Positions 13,955 to 28,448 of a DNA stretch of 36,037 bases are shown in pieces. Under the pieces are notes generated by a model. The model saw nothing but the letters and a program-made list of their open reading frames with translations. It did no database searches and was not told the origin of the DNA. The position numbers and the translations under genes were made by a program. Within the stretch, counting starts at the first letter, position 1; each line of letters begins with the position of its first letter. Source of the stretch: Chloroflexota bacterium (GTDB lineage: Bacteria; Chloroflexota; Dehalococcoidia; Dehalococcoidales; UBA5760); contig JADFUW010000014.1 of NCBI GenBank assembly GCA_015222205.1, positions 1 through 36,037 of the forward strand. The letters are read 5' to 3'.

Positions 13955-15016
13955 CTACAGGCTGAGGCTGCCCTTAAGCGGGACCTCAATGGCTACGGTT
14001 GTCCCTTTGCCTATCTCTGATTGTATCGCTAGCCTACCCCCGATTAACCGGGCCCGCTCTTGCATACCGGCCAGGCCAAGCTGGCCAATACTAGCCCAAT
14101 CACCTATCCTTTTCGGCAGTTCAAAACCCCTGCCGTTATCGTTCACTGTCATCTTCAGGTTATCATGCTGGAACTCCAGCCTGACCACAGCTCTAGATGC
14201 TTGCGCATGTCTTTTGGTATTGTTTAAAGCCTCCTGAGCAATACGGAATAGCAGTAGTTGTGTCTCTGCTGGCAGAGTCTGCTCTACACCCACTATCTCA
14301 AAATAGGCATCAATTTCCCGGGTTTTCACCAAATCGTCCGTCATCCACTCAAGGGCAGCCACTAAACCCAGGTCATCCAATATACGAGGTCTCAAGCCCT
14401 GGGCACAACACCGTAAACTTTCTAATGCATCAATGGCCTGGCTACGCAGCTTTTCCAGGGTCTGTTTGAGGAGCGATTCAGATAACCTTTGGCGTTTAGC
14501 CGAAGTAAGGGTATCCAGACCCTGTGCCAAAAGAAGCAGGGGTGGAGACACATCGTCATGCAATCCTCGAGCAATGCGCTTTCTCTCATGTTCCTGGGCT
14601 CTGATAACCTCGTCAACATAGAAAGCCTTGCTCTCCTCTAGTTGCTTCTCTTCAGTTACATCCCTAGCAACATGTTGAAACCCTTTTACCTCTCCACTGA
14701 TGATGATAGAACTGGTACTCAGCTTTACTGTCCGTGTTGTTCCATCCCTTCTGACTAATTGCTGCTCATAGGGTTGTTCCAGATCTTCTCCGTTACATAA
14801 CTTGCGTCGAGCTTCTCTAGCCGAAGCCTGGAATTCATCGGTAAGAAACTGGGAAACATTCATGCCAGCCCATTCCCCTAGGGTATAACCAGTAAGCTTG
14901 CCAAATGCCTTGTTTCCGTCCAGAATATTACCCTCCATGTCGTGAACCCACATGGCATCGCTGGCATTCTCAAACAGGTATCGGTAGTCTCGCTCGGTCA
15001 GCCTAAATTCTGCCAT
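13955..15016 (-). CDS. PAS-domain sensor histidine kinase (NarX/DesK type)
   Basis: A 353-residue kinase without membrane helices. A PAS domain with PAC tail (residues 8-130) is followed by a HisKA_3 dimerisation domain with phospho-acceptor H153 in RIARGLHDDV, and an HATPase_c domain with an N-box (EALNNTKRHA) and G-box (NDNGRGFELP). Lack of a signal peptide or membrane segment points to sensing of a cytoplasmic or diffusible signal. Its ATG shares one base with the TAA stop of the response regulator (TAATG), so the two are translationally coupled. It is divergent from the channel operon, which is a likely target. Confidence 0.92.
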   Translation of the reverse strand: MAEFRLTERDYRYLFENASDAMWVHDMEGNILDGNKAFGKLTGYTLGEWAGMNVSQFLTDEFQASAREARRKLCNGEDLEQPYEQQLVRRDGTTRTVKLSTSSIIISGEVKGFQHVARDVTEEKQLEESKAFYVDEVIRAQEHERKRIARGLHDDVSPPLLLLAQGLDTLTSAKRQRLSESLLKQTLEKLRSQAIDALESLRCCAQGLRPRILDDLGLVAALEWMTDDLVKTREIDAYFEIVGVEQTLPAETQLLLFRIAQEALNNTKRHAQASRAVVRLEFQHDNLKMTVNDNGRGFELPKRIGDWASIGQLGLAGMQERARLIGGRLAIQSEIGKGTTVAIEVPLKGSLSL

Positions 15017-15696
15017 TACCCGTTCTCCCTTCCCCGGGGGACATCATCAAAAGCAATATAACCCTCCGCCAACCCCTTAATTACCGCCTCAGTCCGGCAG
15101 CTACACCCCATCTTGTTAAAGATATTAGTCAAGTGGGACTTCACCGTACGCAAGCTGAGAAAGAGCTTTTCAGCAATATCCTTGTTGCTCATGCCTCTAG
15201 CCGCTAACCTCAGAACTTCAGTCTCCCTAGAAGTGAGTTGCCCAACGGTCTGCCCCTCACCAGCACCACTGGCTGGCCTGACCACACGCTCTAAAAGCTT
15301 ATGGGTTACCACCGGGTCAAGCACAGACTCACCAGAACGCACGGCACGGATAGCCCCGGTAATCTCACTGCTACGTGCACTTTTCAACAGGTAGCCACAG
15401 GCCCCAGCCTCTAAAAGCCCAAGGATATAGCGAATATCACTGTAGGCAGTAAATATAAATACTGCAGTAGATGGACTTGCCTGCTTGATTAACTTTGTAG
15501 CCTCAATGCCACTGAGTTTGGGCATGACAATATCCATTATCACTATGTCTGGTTTTAGCTCACTGCCTAACCTGACTGCTTCTTCGCCATCGCTAGCCTC
15601 ACCAACCACCTCGAAGTCCCTCTCCTCCTCCAATAGTTTGCGTATTCCTTCCCTCAGCACGGCATGGTCATCAACAATCAAAATTCTTGTCCTCAC
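15016..15696 (-). CDS. NarL/LuxR-family response regulator
   Basis: A 226-residue transcription regulator. The receiver domain has D9/D10, phospho-acceptor D55 (IVIMDIVMP), T83 and K105; the C-terminal LuxR-type HTH (LTSRETEVL to SLRTVKSHL, about 160-215) binds DNA. I use the GTG at 15696, preceded by AAGGAAGG, because the receiver fold begins at once with RTRILIVDD; the longer frame up to 15864 would add 56 residues with no homologous appearance and would run through the promoter. Paired with the kinase that follows. Confidence 0.93.
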   Translation of the reverse strand: MRTRILIVDDHAVLREGIRKLLEEERDFEVVGEASDGEEAVRLGSELKPDIVIMDIVMPKLSGIEATKLIKQASPSTAVFIFTAYSDIRYILGLLEAGACGYLLKSARSSEITGAIRAVRSGESVLDPVVTHKLLERVVRPASGAGEGQTVGQLTSRETEVLRLAARGMSNKDIAEKLFLSLRTVKSHLTNIFNKMGCSCRTEAVIKGLAEGYIAFDDVPRGRENG

Positions 15697-15742
15697 TGTG
15701 ACACAACCTTCCTTATCATCAAGCTCAGCCCATACTAGGTTA

Positions 15743-15771
15743 ATTCTAATGCATCTAGGGATTAATCTCAA
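15743..15771 (-). promoter_or_regulatory. Promoter of the response regulator-kinase pair
   Basis: On the minus strand TTGAGA (15771-15766), a 17-base spacer and TAGAAT (15748-15743). The predicted start is near 15736, about 40 bases before the GTG at 15696. Confidence 0.6.
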
Positions 15772-15786
15772 GGACTTTTCGTCCTT
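15770..15786. promoter_or_regulatory. Palindrome overlapping the regulator promoter
   Basis: AAGGAC-TTTTC-GTCCTT is a perfect 6-bp inverted repeat just upstream of, and touching, the -35 of the regulator promoter in the shared region with the channel operon. It could be an operator for the NarL-type regulator; this is inferred only from position and symmetry. Confidence 0.35.
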
Positions 15787-15867
15787 CAGACATAGGTCTT
15801 TAGGGCATATCAAGATGTGACTCTTGGCCGCAGAAAATAGGGGGTAAGGTCGGTGTATGGTCACCTG

Positions 15868-15896: not shown

Positions 15897-15912
15897 AACA
15901 GGAGGTGTAGCA

Positions 15913-16197
15913 ATGGTGCAAGAGATAGCCGAAAAGACAAAGCCTGTCAGTGATAAGGAAAGACTGGGTCGGAAGGAAGAAATCATGACAGTGCTAGCTA
16001 GAGCTGCCGATGACAGTCAGTTCCTGGCCCGACTTGCCGATAATCCTAGTGAGGCACTCAAGTATTACACCCTAACCCAAGAGGAGATAGCAGCACTGGC
16101 TAGTGGCGACATAAAGAAGATAGAGAGCTGGCTCGGTAAGCTAGACCAACGACATGCCACCTGGCTATGGTGCCGCCTGAGCCAGGAGAAGTGGTAA
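15913..16197 (+). CDS. Small LigA-like domain protein
   Basis: A 94-residue soluble protein. Residues 25-94 (from MTVLARAADD to the end) are a compact helical domain with FLARLADNP, LTQEEIAALASGD and the C-terminal SQEKW. The pattern FxxxLxxxP...L-T-x-x-E-x-x-A-L-x-S-G-D resembles the small LigA subunit of LigAB dioxygenases and Nif11-like or RiPP leader domains. The same domain ends the next protein: 41 of 70 positions are identical without a gap, and both stop at QEKW. AGGAGGT lies six bases before the ATG. One base separates its stop from the next start, so the two are co-translated. Function unknown; a regulatory or plug role for the channel is suggested by the fusion. Confidence 0.8.
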   Translation: MVQEIAEKTKPVSDKERLGRKEEIMTVLARAADDSQFLARLADNPSEALKYYTLTQEEIAALASGDIKKIESWLGKLDQRHATWLWCRLSQEKW

Positions 16198-16198
16198 A

Positions 16199-17518
16199 AT
16201 GGCGCACCAAAATAAACTTGAGCAGATGCTGAGAACCTGCCAAGAACCAGCGGAAGCATCAGCCCAGCTAGAGACTACAGCTGATAAAGTAGAGAGGACT
16301 ATCACTACTGATGCTTACCCACCAGCCAAGGTAGCCGAGAAGGCAGAGGCCGTCGGGGTAACCAAGGGAAAGCTCGATACCCTAAGCACTATACTTTTGG
16401 GTGGTATGGCCGGGGTCTTCATTGGTCTGGGCGCCATGCTTTGCACCCTAGTTACCACTGACATAGGTCTCGGTTTTGGGCTTACCAAATTGCTGGGTGG
16501 CCTCGCCTTCTGCCTCGGCCTGATTCTGGTAGTGATAGCTGGGGCTGAGCTTTTTACTGGCAATTCCCTGCTAACGATGAGCTTTATCAGTGGTCGGACT
16601 AGCCTGGCCCGTTTAGCCCGGAACTGGGGACTAGTCTATGCCGCCAACCTTGGCGGGGCTTTAGCCTTAGTGGGGTTCATGTTCTATACCAACCAGTGGG
16701 CATTTAGTGGCTACGAACTGGGAGCCAATGCTCTACTTACTGCCAATGCTAAGGTAAACCTCGGCTTTGGTGAAGCCCTAGTTCGAGGTATCTTATGTAA
16801 TGTCCTAGTCTGTCTGGCAGTATGGATGGCTTTCAGTGCCCGTAGTGTTACCGGCAAAATACTGGCTATTATGTTTCCTATCACTGCCTTCGTTGCGGCT
16901 GGCTTTGAGCACAGTGTTGCCAATATGTACTTCATTCCTATGGGAATACTACTGGCAAACCAGCCGGCTGTTCTCGGGGCCGCCGGGGTAACTGTTGGTG
17001 GTGTGGCTAATCTCACCTGGGCAGGCTTCGCTGGGAACCTCGTTCCAGTAACTATTGGCAATATTATAGGTGGTGGTATCTTCGTTGGTGCCATCTATTG
17101 GCTAGCCTACTTACGCCGAGAACGGGCAGCTGAGGCAGTAGCCGCCAGACCTTGGCTCGGAGCGATTATCCCTGCCTGTCGTCGTGCTAAGGTGGAGAAA
17201 GAGAGACAAACTCAACTATCAAAGGTTGTTCGCGCTCAGTTAGAAGAGCTACTACGAATCAAACTAGAAGAACCGCTTGCCCTCGACAGTAGCAGTAAAG
17301 CCCTTTTAGAAGTACTAAGTAAGGCCAAGGATGATGACTGCTTTCTGGCAAGCTTAGCCGAAAATCCCGCAGAAGTGCTTAAAGGTTACGACCTAACTCC
17401 CGAGGGAAAGGCAGCACTGGCAAGCGGTGATATTCGCTGGATAGAGTCTAAACTTGGTGCGCTTGAGGAACCGCTAAAAAGTTGGCTTAATGCCCGGCTA
17501 GCTCAAGAAAAGTGGTAA
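16199..17518 (+). CDS. Formate/nitrite transporter family channel with C-terminal LigA-like domain
   Basis: A 439-residue protein with three parts. Residues 1-60 are soluble and charged. Residues 62-305 form the six-helix FNT core, with AELFTGNSLL near 115-125 and FEHSVANMYFIP with the conserved pore H238; these pentameric channels pass formate, nitrite, hydrosulfide or acetate with a proton. Residues 306-369 are a basic then helical linker, and 370-439 are a LigA-like domain nearly identical in layout to the preceding small protein. Most FNT channels are about 270-290 residues and end after the last helix, so both extensions are unusual. The AGGAG for this gene lies inside the previous one. 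Confidence 0.9.
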   Translation: MAHQNKLEQMLRTCQEPAEASAQLETTADKVERTITTDAYPPAKVAEKAEAVGVTKGKLDTLSTILLGGMAGVFIGLGAMLCTLVTTDIGLGFGLTKLLGGLAFCLGLILVVIAGAELFTGNSLLTMSFISGRTSLARLARNWGLVYAANLGGALALVGFMFYTNQWAFSGYELGANALLTANAKVNLGFGEALVRGILCNVLVCLAVWMAFSARSVTGKILAIMFPITAFVAAGFEHSVANMYFIPMGILLANQPAVLGAAGVTVGGVANLTWAGFAGNLVPVTIGNIIGGGIFVGAIYWLAYLRRERAAEAVAARPWLGAIIPACRRAKVEKERQTQLSKVVRAQLEELLRIKLEEPLALDSSSKALLEVLSKAKDDDCFLASLAENPAEVLKGYDLTPEGKAALASGDIRWIESKLGALEEPLKSWLNARLAQEKW

Positions 17519-17654: not shown

Positions 17655-17683
17655 TTGCCCGAACATCGCTATCAGTGTATAAT
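17655..17683 (+). promoter_or_regulatory. Promoter of the cyclic-nucleotide-binding-like gene
   Basis: TTGCCC, a 17-base spacer and perfect TATAAT (17678-17683). The predicted start near 17690 leaves about 40 bases before the TTG start codon at 17732. Confidence 0.55.
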
Positions 17684-17731
17684 CTATTGCAGCAGAGCAA
17701 ATGGATAATACACATAAAAGGGAGTATAAAA

Positions 17732-18187
17732 TTGGATAAGTTAGAACTACTAAAAAGGTCAGAGCTGTTTCGTGAGCTAAATAATGAGCAACTCGGTTTA
17801 GTGGTGCCACTGTGCACTGGTCAAGTATACGAGCCAGGGGCAATGATACACAAGGCGAACGCAATTATCAATAAAATATATGTAATTGAAGCGGGCTTGG
17901 TAGGGATTATCCTGGAACCAGGCCCACTATCCCAGCGACAGCTTCAGGCGGTCAGCAACTTTGAGACCTTTGGCTGGGAGGCTGCTATACCACCGCACCT
18001 TGCCACAGCGACAGCAAAGGCTATAGAAAGGACAAAGGTATTAGCCTTTGATGGAAATGAGCTGTGTAATTTATGTTTTGCTAAACCCGAAGTGGGATGC
18101 ATAATATGCCGAGCAGTGGCCAGGGTAATCGCCAGTAGATTGCATTCGGCATTTATGCAACTAGTGGGTATTACTTCACAGGACTAA
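17732..18187 (+). CDS. Cyclic nucleotide-binding-like (cNMP/CRP N-terminal) domain protein
   Basis: A 151-residue single-domain protein. LLKRSELFRELNNEQL at the start, then a beta-roll with EPGAMIHKANAIINKIYVIEAGLV, match the first half of the CRP-type cNMP domain. The phosphate-binding cassette (usually F/W-G-E-xx-L...R-x-A) is changed to TFGWEAAIPPHLATA, lacking the Arg, so it may bind no cyclic nucleotide. No helix-turn-helix follows, so it is not a DNA-binding regulator of the CRP kind. Start is the TTG with AAAAGGGAG upstream; an ATG at 17675 would precede the promoter -10. It sits between the channel and acetyl-CoA synthetase genes. Confidence 0.78.
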   Translation: MDKLELLKRSELFRELNNEQLGLVVPLCTGQVYEPGAMIHKANAIINKIYVIEAGLVGIILEPGPLSQRQLQAVSNFETFGWEAAIPPHLATATAKAIERTKVLAFDGNELCNLCFAKPEVGCIICRAVARVIASRLHSAFMQLVGITSQD

Positions 18188-18346: not shown

Positions 18347-20314
18347 TTGAAACAAGCAGAGTCAATCACTTCTATGATGGAAGAGAAGAGGGTTTTCAAT
18401 CCGCCAGAGGAGCTCAGGAAAAAGGCATATATCAAGAGTATGGATGAGTATAAAGATATTTATCAAGGGTCTATTGATGACCCTGAGGGTTTCTGGGGGA
18501 AGATGGCAGAGCAACTGGACTGGTTCAAAAAGTGGGATAAGGTCCTGGTCGAGGACTTCAAAGAAGGCAAGCACGAGTGGTTTGTGGGGGGTAAGCTTAA
18601 TGTTACCTACAACTGCTTGGATAGGCACCTTAAAACCTGGCGGAAGAATAAGGCAGCGCTGGTTTGGGAAGGGGATATCGGTGATACTAAGACCCTTACC
18701 TATCAGGAGCTGTATTATCATGTGTGTAAATTTGCCAACGTACTAAAAAGGCACGGGGTCAAAAAGGGTGACCGTGTTTCTATCTACCTACCAATGATTC
18801 CTGAGCTACCAATTGCCATGTTAGCCTGCGCTCGTATAGGTGCTATCCACAGCGTCGTTTTTGGTGGTTTTAGTGCTGACGCCCTAAGAGATAGAATACT
18901 AGACTGTGAATCCACACTACTCATTTGTGCCGATGGCTACTACCGTGCCGGTAAAATTATCAGAAGCAAGAACAATGCTGACGAAGCCCTTGACTCCTGC
19001 CCTAAGGTAAAGGATGCGATTGTGGTGAAGAGGGCAGACATTGAGATAAATATGGAAAAAGGACGTGACTATTGGTGGCATGACGAGCTAAATGCCGATG
19101 ATATCAAACCAAATTGCGAACCAGAAGTCATGGATGCCGAAGACCCGCTCTTTATCCTGTATACCAGTGGCAGCACCGGAAAGCCCAAGGGTGTGCTTCA
19201 TACTCAAGCTGGCTATCTCCTATTCTGCTACCAGACTTTCAAGTGGATATTTGATATAAAGGACGAAGATACCTTCTGGTGTACCGCAGATATTGGCTGG
19301 GTAACCGGCCATAGCTACATTGTGTATGGACCCTTAGCCTTTGGGGCAACCAGCCTGATGTTTGAGGGCGTACCTAGCTATCCCCATCCGGACAGGTTCT
19401 GGGGAATTGTCGAGAAACACAGGGTTAATGTTTTCTATACTGCCCCCACGGCTCTTCGAGCCATAATGAGAGAAGGGGATGAATGGCCCCATAAGCATGA
19501 TTTGAGTAGTCTACGCATCCTGGGAACAGTTGGGGAACCAATTAACCCTGAAGCCTGGATGTGGTATTACAATGTTATCGGTAAAGGTAAATGCCCCATT
19601 GTCGATACCTGGTGGCAGACAGAGACAGGGGGCATACTAATCACTCCCCTCCCCGGGGCATCTCCCATTAAGCCAGGGTCAGCCACAATACCATTCCCTG
19701 GAATTGAGCCAGCAGTGCTGAGAGAAGATGGCTCAGAGGCCGGCGTCAACGAAGGTGGTTACTTGGTAATTAAGAAGCCTTGGCCTGGTTTGATGCGAGG
19801 GGTTTATGGCGACCCGACGAGGTTTAAAGAGACATATTTTGTTCGTTTCCCCGGTGTATATACCGCCGGAGACGGAGCTAGGGTGGATGAAGACGGGTAT
19901 TATTGGTTAATGGGACGGATAGACGATGTCATTAATGTAGCCGGTCACCGTATTGGTACTGCCGAAGTTGAGAGTGCTCTGGTATCCCATAATTTAGTGG
20001 CCGAAGCCGCAGTCGTCGGCATGCCCCACGAGGTTAAAGGACAGGGTATATATGCCTTCGTCACCCTAAATATTGGTGTGGAGAAGACCGATGCCCTCAA
20101 GAAGGAGTTAGTAGCCCACGTACGCAAGGAAATTGGCCCGATAGCTACTCCAGACAAGATCCAGTTTGCTGATGGTCTACCCAAGACCAGAAGCGGCAAG
20201 ATTATGAGGCGGATACTAACCAAAATCGCCTCCGGCGATACTAAAAATTTGGGGGATACCAGTACCCTGGCTGATCCATCAGTAGTCACTATCCTAGTGA
20301 GCGGAATACAGTAA
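18347..20314 (+). CDS. acsA: Acetyl-CoA synthetase (AMP-forming)
   Basis: A 655-residue adenylate-forming enzyme that makes acetyl-CoA from acetate, ATP and CoA. It has the ACS N-terminal domain, the P-loop [11 protein letters not shown] near residue 271, TWWQTETGG near 423, the adenylation hinge MGRIDDVIN and the catalytic lysine in RSGKIMRR near 617, a residue whose acetylation switches off ACS in other bacteria. The best start is the TTG at 18347 with AAAGGGGTG upstream; an ATG at 18374 would be possible. The acetate transporter follows after 78 bases, so uptake and activation are linked. No acetyltransferase or deacetylase gene is nearby. Confidence 0.96.
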
Positions 20315-20392
20315 AAATACCAGCCGCCGAATAGTAATTTGTTTCTCTAATGGGTAAGCCAGTAGCCAAAATCTATTAAAAGAGGGTTGTGC

Positions 20393-20977
20393 ATGTCAAA
20401 AGAGGCTACTAAAGAAGGTGTTATTTGGGCTAATCCTGGTGCTCTGGGATTAGCTGGCTTTGGTTTCAATACTATTTTATTACAAGTACATAATATTGGC
20501 TGGATACCCAGTACTATGCCCCTGATCTGGGGGTTCTTTTGGGGAGGGATGGCTCAGGTTATTGCCGGGATAATTGATGCTCGCCGCGGAGATACCTTTG
20601 GTTTAACCGCCTTCACCTCCTTCGGCGTGTTCTGGATAGGTCTTGCCTTCGCCTTCCTCCTGGAATGGCTGGGGGTAGTTAAGCTTGATGGTCCTGGGCT
20701 AGCCTGGACTATGATAGTCTGGGGAATATTTACCGGCTACATGACAATCGGTGCCCTTAGAATATCACGAGTACACGTAACTATACTTGCCTCATTGACG
20801 GTACTCTTCTTCTTACTGGCAGGACACTTCTTCGGTGCTGTTCCAGCCCTCGTCGCCGGAATAGAGGGAATTTTCGTCGGCGCCGCCGCCGTTTATGGCT
20901 CAGCAGCCATGATTATAAATGCTCAATATGGACGCTGGATACTCCCTATTGGATTAATACACAAAAAATCATCATAA
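20393..20977 (+). CDS. satP: Acetate uptake transporter, SatP/YaaH (GPR1/FUN34) family
   Basis: A 194-residue integral membrane protein with six predicted helices. The family signature N-P-[AG]-x-L-G-L is present as NPGALGLAGFG at the start of helix one, and GGMAQVIAGI is in helix two. Relatives (SatP of E. coli, AceTr family) move acetate or succinate with protons. The ATG at 20393 is favoured because AGAGGG lies seven bases upstream; the GTG two codons earlier is close too. It directly follows acsA on the same strand. Confidence 0.9.
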   Translation: MSKEATKEGVIWANPGALGLAGFGFNTILLQVHNIGWIPSTMPLIWGFFWGGMAQVIAGIIDARRGDTFGLTAFTSFGVFWIGLAFAFLLEWLGVVKLDGPGLAWTMIVWGIFTGYMTIGALRISRVHVTILASLTVLFFLLAGHFFGAVPALVAGIEGIFVGAAAVYGSAAMIINAQYGRWILPIGLIHKKSS

Positions 20978-21026: not shown

Positions 21027-21746
21027 CTACCCCGGTAACCCATCAGTTACGGGTCCACGGGGGAAACCATCAACCGCTAGCTTACGCAACGCCTTCTTGG
21101 TGTCACTGGCAACTCGTGCCCTATCACACTGCCGAAGCCGATACTTGAATAGCCAGTAGGTAAACTCCTTTAACTCAGCCAGACCGATAGATTTAAGATG
21201 AGGGTAGCCCTTCTCTTTCCTAAAACGTTTAAGCAGCACCCCCCTAGTAGCCCCATATATTTGCCGATAAACCTCGTTAGCAATATCATGCTCACTGCTA
21301 TAACCCAAAGCCCGCAGTTCCTTACGCACCTCCTCCTGCACCACCATAAATAAAGCCTCCTCCACGGTAATGCCGTAAAAGTAGTTAAGATATTGCCGAT
21401 ACTTACTGCTGCCAATAAGCTCTTTAACTTCCCTTACGGTCAGGGTAAGCGGTGGCTCGCCGTGAAAAAGGAGAGCCATTTTCTCATCATCAGGTAACAA
21501 ACCATCCACTGCCTCACACAGGCGCTCCGCCAGGAGCAACCAATCAAAGGCTTCACCAGCAATAAGATAACGGTAACGGCGCCCATTATATAACTCCTCA
21601 GCAGTAGACCACAGCCCGATAGCCTCAAGTAAGGCAATATACCAGTGCTTACCGCCGCTAATAGCCTGCTCTAAATACATTATTACCTCAGCCTCATTAT
21701 CATGAGACAACCGGGAAGACTGTAGCTCGTTATCTATATCTACCAT
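21027..21746 (-). CDS. Conserved hypothetical protein, 239 residues
   Basis: Not recognised. The protein is soluble, mostly helical, with no signal peptide and no membrane segment. Residues 20-130 are rich in aromatic and acidic residues (EAIGLWSTAEELYNGRRYRYL); residues 125-215 look basic and include a repeat-like KEKGYPHLKSIGLAELKEFTYWLFKYRLRQ split over the C-terminal third. It begins 14 bases after the polX stop and is probably co-transcribed with it. A decayed second copy of its C-terminal third lies at 17569-17643, so the family has more than one member in this genome. A DNA-related role is possible from the polX linkage, but no motif shows it. Confidence 0.7.
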   Translation of the reverse strand: MVDIDNELQSSRLSHDNEAEVIMYLEQAISGGKHWYIALLEAIGLWSTAEELYNGRRYRYLIAGEAFDWLLLAERLCEAVDGLLPDDEKMALLFHGEPPLTLTVREVKELIGSSKYRQYLNYFYGITVEEALFMVVQEEVRKELRALGYSSEHDIANEVYRQIYGATRGVLLKRFRKEKGYPHLKSIGLAELKEFTYWLFKYRLRQCDRARVASDTKKALRKLAVDGFPRGPVTDGLPG

Positions 21747-25540: not shown

Positions 25541-26134
25541 TCACCTTCCGCAGCAGTGTTTGTATTTCTTGCCACTCCCACAGGGGCAGGGGTCATTCCG
25601 GCCTATCTTTTTGCCCCCAACCCTTACTGGCTGTTTCCTGGCAGTGCCAGTGCCACCGACGGCAACCCTGGCCATCGGGGACGCCTCTGGCCGCGGGGCT
25701 TCTTTCTTAACAATGCTCATATGATATATAGCATGAACGACATCATGCTGGATAGTGTCTAAGAGATGCTGGAACTGCTCTTCTCCCTGTCTCTTATAGG
25801 CAACCAGGGGGTCTCTCTGAGCCACCCCCACCAGCCCTATTCCCTGGCGCATCTCCTCCATTATAGTCAGGTGCTCAATCCACAACTTATCCATGATAGA
25901 CAGCATAACCCGCCTCTCCAGCACCCTCATATTATCCAACCCTATCTCCTTCTCCATGGATTCATAGATAGCCTCTACCTGCTCAATAAGCCTGGCTTCA
26001 ATCTGCCCCGGCTTCATTCGGGAAAGCTCGCTGGCATCAAGCCTCGGAGCTATTGAGAAGATAGTGGGTACATTCCTGAGCAAGGCGGGCATTACAAACC
26101 TTTCAACCAGTTGCCAGCTGTTATTATCCATCAC
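25541..26134 (-). CDS. secA: SecA C-terminal fragment (frameshifted)
   Basis: 197 residues from a GTG at 26134 to the end of SecA. It holds the rest of the helical scaffold with [46 protein letters not shown] and the flexible linker, and ends in the zinc-binding SecC motif [17 protein letters not shown] (C-x-C-x8-C-C), which binds SecB or ribosomes in other bacteria. It lies one base out of frame with the main SecA piece, whose stop is two bases before. No Shine-Dalgarno of its own is evident. The first residues ([15 protein letters not shown]...) look like internal sequence, not a natural start. It is best read as the tail of one frameshifted gene. Confidence 0.88.
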
Positions 26135-26135
26135 G

Positions 26136-28448
26136 CTATCTCTCTATATCCTTACTCCATTGCTGATATAGAGACTTGGCATAGTCAAAAAGTCTTTCTT
26201 CAATCTCAAGTTGATTCATTTGAGGGAGTATATTTTCGTTAAACCACGGCGGCAGCGGTAATTTAGCAGCGACATCCCTAATCAGGCTTCGCAAATTCAA
26301 CTCAGCCGTACTGCCACCAGAATGAGAAGCCACCAGGTTTCTTACCTCATTGTCAATCACATTTAGAATGCCATCTTTACTGCATAGGTCCCGTATTTCC
26401 TCGCTAACTATTGATAATATGTTTGTCTTAAGGTCAGCACCACCTAAAATCTTCCGGCGCTCACTATAGACAAGCTCCCGTTGCTTATTGACGACATCGT
26501 CATACTCAACGAGGTGTTTACGCATATCAAAGTGATAGCCTTCAACACGAACCTGAGAGGATTCAATAGAACGGTTGACCATCCTGTTCTCAATCGGGGT
26601 ATTCTCATCCATACCAGCCCACTCCATAAAACCCCTAATTCGGTCACCACCGAAGCGGCGCACAATATCATCCTCCAGAGACACATAAAAGCGCGAGCGC
26701 CCCGGGTCACCCTGACGCCCCGACCTCCCCCGTAGCTGATTATCAATACGCCGTGCCTCATGGCGCTCAGTGCCAATAACATACAGACCACCAAGCTCAA
26801 CCACCCGGTTATGTTCCCTCTCCCATTCCTGCCACTCCTTCTTATCTCCTTTAGGCGGTTCTCCACCCCCCAGCACGATGTCAACACCACGCCCCGCCAT
26901 ATTGGTGGCGACAGTTACCGTTCCCGGCTGCCCCGCCTGGGCAATGATACCACCCTCTTTAACATGCTCCTTGGCATTAAGTATCTGATGGGGTATACCC
27001 TTTCTCTTTAATAAATCACTTAAGCGTTCCGACTTTTCAATAGATACGGTGCCCACCAGCACCGGCCGCCCCTCCTTATGAAGGTCGTCAATCTCATGCG
27101 CCACCGCCTTGAATTTAGACTCCTCATCCTTATAAATCACATCCGGATAGTCCTCACGAATCATCGGTTTATGAGTAGGAATAACAACCACCTCAAGGCT
27201 ATATATCTTGTGAAACTCCTCTGCCTCAGTAAGCGCCGTGCCCGTCATTCCCGCCAGCTTGCTATACATCCGAAAGTAGTTCTGAACGGTGATAGTAGCA
27301 AAGGTCATGGTCTCCCGTTGCACCTTAACATGCTCCTTAGCCTCTATCGCCTGATGCAGCCCCTCGGCATAGCGCCGACCAAACATTAAGCGTCCGGTAA
27401 ACTGGTCTACGATAATAACCTGCCCATCCTTCACCACATACTCGGTATCCTTCTTATAGAACACATGGGCTTTAAGGGCACTATCCAGATGACGAGTTAG
27501 CGCATAATTTGATGGGTCGTAGAGGTTAGGCGACTTTAATAAGCCTTCCCTCTTGAGCATCCGTTCTACATTCTCTATGCCGAGGTCAGTCAAAGGTGCC
27601 GCCTGCGCCTTCTCATCAACTACATAGTCCTCTTCTGGACGCAGGCGAGGGACAAGCCGGGCGAATATCTGATACTTCTCCCCAGCCTCCTCAGCCGGAC
27701 CACTGATGATAAGCGGCGTGCGTGCCTCATCAATAAGCAGGTTATCTACCTCATCAACAATGGCATAATTTGGCTCCTGCTGAACACACTGGGATAGGTT
27801 TATAACCATATTGTCCCGCAGATAGTCAAAACCAAACTCGCTACTGGTGCCATAGGTAATATCAGCCTGATAAGCTTCACGACGAGTGATAGGTTTAAAA
27901 TGGGGCCACCTGGAATCCCCAGAATCAAAGCTAGGGTCATAAAGACGGGCTGGGGTACGTTCATCCAAGTTCTGCATAGGATAAATGCTAGCTACACTCA
28001 TCCCTAAGGCATGATAAATAGGCCCCATCCAGTAGGGGTCTCGTCTAGCCAGATAGTCATTAACCGTAGCCAGATGGCAACCCCGACCGGTAAGGCTATT
28101 CAGGTAGAGGGGAAGGGTAGCTACCAGGGTTTTACCCTCACCCGTTCTCATCTCGGCAATTTTACCCTGATGAAGGACAATACCACCGATGAGCTGCACA
28201 TCAAAGTGACGCTGACCAATAGTCCGCTTGGCTGCCTCTCGGACAGCGGCAAAGGCTTCGGGCAGAAGCTCATCAAGCGTAGTGCCATCTTTAAGCCGAG
28301 ACTTAAATTCATCAGTCTTGGCGCCAAGCTCCCCATCACTGAGTGCCTCAAAACCCGGCTCCAGCTCATTTATCTTATCTACTATCGGCTGTAGTCGCTT
28401 TAACTGCTTCTCATTAGAATCAGTAAGTCGACTGAATAATTTAACCAT
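26136..28448 (-). CDS. secA: Preprotein translocase subunit SecA, main part
   Basis: 770 residues of the SecA motor that drives protein export through SecYEG. Present are the Walker A loop RTGEGKTLV near residue 105, the DEAD-like box [12 protein letters not shown] near 225, the preprotein cross-linking domain, [14 protein letters not shown] near 505 and [15 protein letters not shown] near 550. It stops at a TAG in the helical scaffold (KDIER), before the IRA1 region, which lies in the next frame. Complete SecA proteins are 840-960 residues; 770 plus 197 gives the expected size. The ATG lies inside the TAA of the DUF2007-like gene upstream. Confidence 0.92.

Follow-up and report, generated by a model that had tools for sequence, protein, structure and literature searches.

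The window, meaning the whole stretch of 36,037 nt analysed here (contig JADFUW010000014.1, forward strand), stems from a metagenome-assembled genome (MAG) of a Dehalococcoidia bacterium (UBA5760) that is 90% complete. It contains a small gene followed by a gene for a channel of the FNT family, and both products carry the same domain, once as a free protein and once as a C-terminal tail. An earlier note on this DNA had called the domain LigA-like and suggested a gating, docking or sensing module that can act in trans. The pair consists of the following elements.

15900..15907, forward strand: ribosome binding site AGGAGGTG of the small gene, ahead of its first ATG (from the sequence)
15913..16197, forward strand: free domain copy, 94 aa, ending in RLSQEKW (NF038399, 49.4 bits; first gene of related operons)
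16199..17518, forward strand: FocA-like FNT channel with C-terminal domain, 439 aa (Pfam PF01226)
16331..17104, forward strand: FNT channel part, residues 45-302, followed directly by the Y-L-R of the sixth transmembrane helix (TM6)
17306..17515, forward strand: C-terminal domain copy, residues 370-439, ending in RLAQEKW (NF038399, 33.7 bits)

The stop codon TAA of the free copy and the start codon ATG of the channel are separated by one base, and both reading frames lie where the earlier note had placed them. Recounted from the translations, residues 25-94 of the free copy and residues 370-439 of the channel align without a gap at 41 of 70 identical positions and both end in QEKW, so that the twofold occurrence of the domain holds. 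When the own genome was searched with the small protein, the channel tail was recovered (E=1.4e-19) and no further significant match.

The profile search led to another family than LigA. The Pfam LigA profile has no match at E<=1 and this identity is hence rejected. Instead, the free copy reaches 49.4 bits against NCBIfam NF038399 ('Os1348 family NHLP clan', cut-off 40), with the channel tail staying below that cut-off, and the Frankia_peptide profile was matched as well. A profile of 60 copies compared with solved structures finds Os1348 (6lk7) at E=1.6e-4 and the SonA 'LigA domain' leaders at E~0.002. The nearest solved relatives by sequence are therefore Os1348 and the SonA precursors of ribosomally synthesised and post-translationally modified peptides (RiPPs). 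The predicted single-chain model has six helices like Os1348; its best structure matches (Foldseek) are SonA chains with a probability of <=0.97 and a target TM-score of <=0.74, all E-values being >0.5. Judged by its sequence, the domain is a member of the Os1348/NHLP clan and not of Pfam LigA. What is left of the name LigA-like is a loose kinship, solely via the SonA chains annotated as LigA domain.

Os1348 crystallised as a homodimer (6lk7) whose interface is formed by helices 1, 4, 5 and 6 (PMC7726476), the SonA leader docks onto its methyltransferase (PMC8429565), and for folded NHLP leaders the literature describes binding of the enzyme by protein-protein contact. Hence, by analogy, the fold can be counted as one that is known to dimerise or dock. 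Os1348 (6lk7, PMC7726476) resembles the domain in the profile family of the free copy, the six helices and the small size, but it is an antibiotic-related precursor adjoined by modifying enzymes. Here, the C-terminus is conserved, the domain is also the tail of metabolic proteins, and no maturation enzymes were found among the typed neighbours in the mapped loci, YcaO being the enzyme family searched genome-wide. The borosin leader of SonA (BBD, PMC8429565), the best fold match, is likewise a small helix bundle docking on another protein, but its methyltransferase partner and the core peptide that follows it are not seen at our locus.

The host of the tail is an FNT channel, as the earlier note had it: it scores 248.3 bits against Pfam Form_Nir_trans (PF01226, cut-off 34.6) and stays below the cut-off of the FocA equivalog TIGR04060 (238 bits, cut-off 290). 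By these scores it is a FocA-like FNT channel and no FocA equivalog. The pore residues T91 and H209 of FocA are matched by T120 and H238, and the Y-L-R after TM6 is present as Y304-L305-R306, followed by a linker and then the domain. As E. coli FocA has just five residues past Y-L-R (PMC5572259), the predicted extension of about 130 residues is unusual. FNT termini lie on the cytoplasmic side, and the C-terminus of FocA influences translocation (PMC5572259). The text of a survey of FNT channels (PMC5525234) contains neither 'fusion' nor 'Chloroflexi'.

A pattern scan over 84,980 species, with one genome per species, returned 41 loci, nearly all of them in MAGs of Dehalococcoidia or Chloroflexota; compared loci are labelled by L-numbers in the following. 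In a sample of the class (393 Dehalococcoidia genomes) 31 have a domain match, two of which are weak. FNT channels occur in 51 of the 393, and 11 of these 51 genomes have a tailed one. An FNT channel is present in 14 of 29 strongly domain-positive genomes versus 37 of 364 others (Fisher P=1e-6, not corrected for relatedness).

Wherever the DNA upstream of a tailed channel is covered, a free copy is located directly upstream (18/18), at a distance of 0-58 bases where measured. This count includes L147 and L148, apparent exceptions due to start-call errors, and leaves out L083, the contig of which ends. The tail is kept in 19 channel loci. Pair and tail thus recur in other genomes, and at least seven Dehalococcoidia families have the pair. 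In the DNA covered around the four FNT loci with untailed channels (L043-L046), no copy of the domain is present.

The domain is not confined to channels. The gene maps show a few types of operon: the type of the window (free copy, tailed channel, with or without a cNMP protein, acetyl-CoA synthetase and SatP); a free copy followed by NuoE, NuoF and a formate dehydrogenase (FDH) alpha subunit with a tail ending in QEKW; acetate genes followed by free copy and tailed channel; a free copy with an exported FDH, FdhB and an NrfD-like subunit; and a free copy with acetyl-CoA synthetase (ACS). On FDH alpha subunits, tails ending in QEKW occur at 14 loci, and in most of these the first gene is a free copy. 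For L058, the tailed FDH reaches 828 bits against Fdh-alpha TIGR01591 (cut-off 666). In enzyme type these proteins resemble Dehalococcoidia FDHs with NuoE/NuoF partners such as FdhAB of DscP3, for which the parts of the publication available to us do not mention a C-terminal domain (PMC5736913). No open-licence paper was found that contains 'NHLP' together with 'formate dehydrogenase'.

Several FDH genes show peculiarities of their own. In the gene for the tailed alpha subunit of L055 (9775-12741) the position expected for selenocysteine is occupied by an in-frame TGA (U402 of the translated stretch), and the alpha subunits of L057 and L060 are split near the corresponding position. L171 (4357-7500) encodes an FDH alpha of 899 aa directly followed by a separate domain protein of 110 aa, i.e. 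an unfused arrangement. The own genome encodes an untailed FDH alpha of 1380 aa (L165:3447, C26), which is ~400 residues longer than the tailed FDHs; long forms similar to it are found in L059 and L158.

Furthermore, the domain, with its QEKW end, is joined to receiver domains in two loci. The fusion in L050 joins one receiver to the free copy that precedes the tailed channel, and in L080 a free copy is fused to two receivers. In L087 the ACS of a free-copy operon carries an N-terminal receiver domain (Pfam). These three cases thus tie the operons to phospho-signalling, and the fusions to the domain suggest that phosphorylation can bear directly on the module. Receiver-ACS fusions are encoded at L087:7209-9620 (confirmed by Pfam) and L166:6256-8676 (similar start), both in operons headed by a divergent free copy, and suggest a direct phospho-control of acetate activation.

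Beyond Dehalococcoidia, a sample of the phylum gave only weak generic matches of the Os1348 type (E 1e-13 or weaker), and those inspected lack the QEKW end. L053 (Desulfobacterales MAG) and L083 (Bathyarchaeota MAG) are placed amid Dehalococcoidia sequences in the domain tree and may be misbinned contigs. L080 (Syntrophaceae), with a more divergent domain copy, may be a real occurrence outside the class.

In the domain tree (79 copies, 79 columns), many inner branches of which lack resolution, channel tails form one group (94% bootstraps), FDH tails a second (100/91), and free copies together with the two receiver fusions a third (92/96). The tail of the window channel belongs to the first of these groups, and the odd free copy of L171 stands beside the channel tails. 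Free copies of channel operons and of FDH operons are mixed together. Since the three classes separate in this manner, the pair of the window is, as far as the tree tells, old and maintained and no recent duplication. Free copies, channel tails and FDH tails all have W84, R88, L89 and the terminal QEKW, each position of QEKW being conserved to >=85% in every class. These shared residues suggest a single partner surface common to the three. W69 in channel tails is accompanied by R/K73 and P80, while free copies and FDH tails have K69 with W73 and R80; the surface of the channel tails is thus partly different. We infer from the order of helices that the one with residues 69-73 corresponds to a dimer-interface helix of Os1348.

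The surroundings of the pair comprise the following genes.

13955..15016, reverse strand: PAS histidine kinase (HisKA_3/HATPase_c), divergent from the operon (Pfam PAS, HisKA_3, HATPase_c)
15016..15864, reverse strand: NarL/LuxR-type response regulator (Pfam Response_reg and GerE)
17675..18187, forward strand: cNMP-binding-domain protein (Pfam PF00027, 33.5 bits)
18347..20314, forward strand: acetyl-CoA synthetase (Pfam ACAS_N, AMP-binding)
20387..20977, forward strand: SatP/AceTr acetate uptake transporter (NCBIfam NF038013, 157 bits, cut-off 50)

The listed start of the regulator is probably too early, since its receiver domain begins only at residue 61. The two-component genes, which the earlier note had offered as context, prove to be a recurrent feature: operons usually start with the free copy, divergent from the kinase/NarL regulator pair. 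In a strict test on the 45 free copies with sufficient DNA upstream, the divergent NarL-type gene is the next neighbour of 30, and six of the remaining 15 are internal to operons that themselves adjoin a NarL-type gene. The gene maps of most relatives have the PAS histidine kinase at the equivalent position. The cNMP protein recurs in the operons of L047, L050, L052, L056, L065, L071, L147 and L148. A palindrome AGGGCAAG-N3-CTTGCCCT is located upstream of the free copy in L059, L061, L062, L064, L068, L069 and L158 (0-2 mismatches of 14); within this one set of related loci it precedes channel-type and FDH-type operons alike and is a candidate operator of the NarL-type regulator. It was looked for in the window and not found there.

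Based on these data we propose that the domain is a docking or regulatory module by which Dehalococcoidia handle formate (and acetate), and that it is dedicated to this pathway. Transcription would be controlled, and the operon switched on, by the divergent pair of PAS kinase and NarL regulator. The free copy, encoded first, would bind the cytoplasmic C-terminal copy that each protomer of the FocA-like pentamer carries, and this pairing would change opening or attachment of the channel such that the formate flux is adjusted. In relatives a tailed FDH would replace the tailed channel as partner of the free copy, and where receiver fusions exist the free copy is joined straight to a receiver domain. 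The constant pairing and the old, separate lineages of free copies and tails are as expected of a module acting in trans. This part of the earlier suggestion is supported. The module is not specific to the channel, as FDHs and receiver domains carry it too. That the free copy docks on the tail in trans, domain to domain and with a regulatory effect, seems to us slightly better than an even bet. Probably the domain is a plug-in part controlling or connecting formate-handling proteins in these uncultured bacteria. Doubtful, though worth stating, is the wider idea of a previously undescribed system in which one domain of RiPP-leader fold is the common socket on formate channel, FDH and receiver proteins, the free copy linking the two-component phospho-signal directly to formate transport and oxidation.

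GlnK and AmtB offer a precedent: GlnK is small and soluble, and its gene lies directly upstream of that for the channel on which it acts. The gene order is alike, but GlnK is a PII protein without homology to its channel. With FocA-PflB our pair has in common the FocA-like pore (T120, H238, Y-L-R) and the idea that a partner in the cytoplasm sets the formate flux, except that the partner proposed here is homologous to a C-terminal domain absent from E. coli FocA.

Several points weigh against docking of the free copy on the tail. The domain model is of middling confidence (pLDDT 71.6). Free copies also lead operons in which no tailed partner is encoded (L077 and L085 with exported FDH, L049 and L087 with ACS). 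Tails resemble their own free copy no more closely than others (52.9 versus 51.1%), and a partner-specific co-evolution of the two is not visible in these values. Finally, the domain-domain contact, the effect on formate flux and the role of phosphorylation are what we infer.

Operons lacking a tailed partner would fit a ligand sensor, where a small pathway molecule is bound by each copy, the host protein is altered, the free copy acts as a separate sensor and copy-copy contact is not needed. ACT or CBS domains show this pattern, a small domain that occurs on several proteins of one pathway and also in free form, but the fold is without known ligand, its known relatives dimerise or bind proteins, and the conserved QEKW end resembles a contact epitope more than a pocket; we regard a sensor as unlikely. 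A little less probable still is a metabolon in which channel and FDH tails meet via a bridging free copy, with oxidation of formate taking place at the pore. Channel and FDH do have the tail in common, and FDH operons adjoin tailed-channel operons in L061, L068 and L158. In the class sample, however, the 11 genomes with tailed channels and the nine with tailed FDHs do not overlap, an FNT hit is absent in eight of the latter nine, and the window genome, which is 90% complete, has an untailed FDH. G252, one of the compared genomes, is possibly an exception to this exclusion, as its FDH contig ends before the gene end. That the two kinds of tail were not found together in one genome argues against a simple tether of channel and FDH, which is less likely than docking in trans.

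The domain could also recruit a common chaperone or membrane factor for assembly, targeting or stability of its hosts. The QEKW end is universal on unrelated hosts and operons of exported FDHs are likewise headed by free copies, but the assembly of a channel and of a soluble FDH have little in common, and besides the kinase/regulator pair the gene maps reveal no constant extra gene as candidate factor; we consider this an improbable explanation, a shade below the tether. The matches to NF038399 and Frankia_peptide would suit a RiPP precursor composed of leader and core. This reading is disfavoured and very improbable: a variable core is missing, the C-terminus with QEKW is the most conserved part, a YcaO gene was not found in the genome, and both a channel and an enzyme carry the domain as their tail. 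The faintest chance of all is given to a recent tandem duplication without function. The genes are adjacent and identical at 41 of 70 positions, but the pair occurs in at least seven families, free and tail lineages split before those families, and frames and C-termini are maintained. The domain tree argues against a recent origin, and the possibility of a random duplication, which the earlier note had named as refuting its suggestion, is not borne out.

FNT channels are usually seen as bare pores with short ends. With a candidate docking domain built into the channel and a free partner homologous to it, the pair represents a small, testable system for the gating of formate flux beyond FocA-PflB. 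The module on FDHs and receivers suggests that a folded domain of the RiPP-leader type may be an ordinary part of central metabolism in bacteria, which warns against annotating such domain proteins as antibiotic precursors. Moreover, the module gives a functional handle on formate use by uncultured Dehalococcoidia.

Two further observations concern the remaining window. The reverse strand encodes a 239-aa protein (21027-21746) with no Pfam match at E<=0.001. At 25541-28448, also on the reverse strand, 1 base separates a 770-aa open reading frame (ORF) from the 197-aa ORF that follows it, and the latter has SecA wing/scaffold and SEC-C domains; it looks as if SecA were in two pieces here, be it by a real split or a frameshift.
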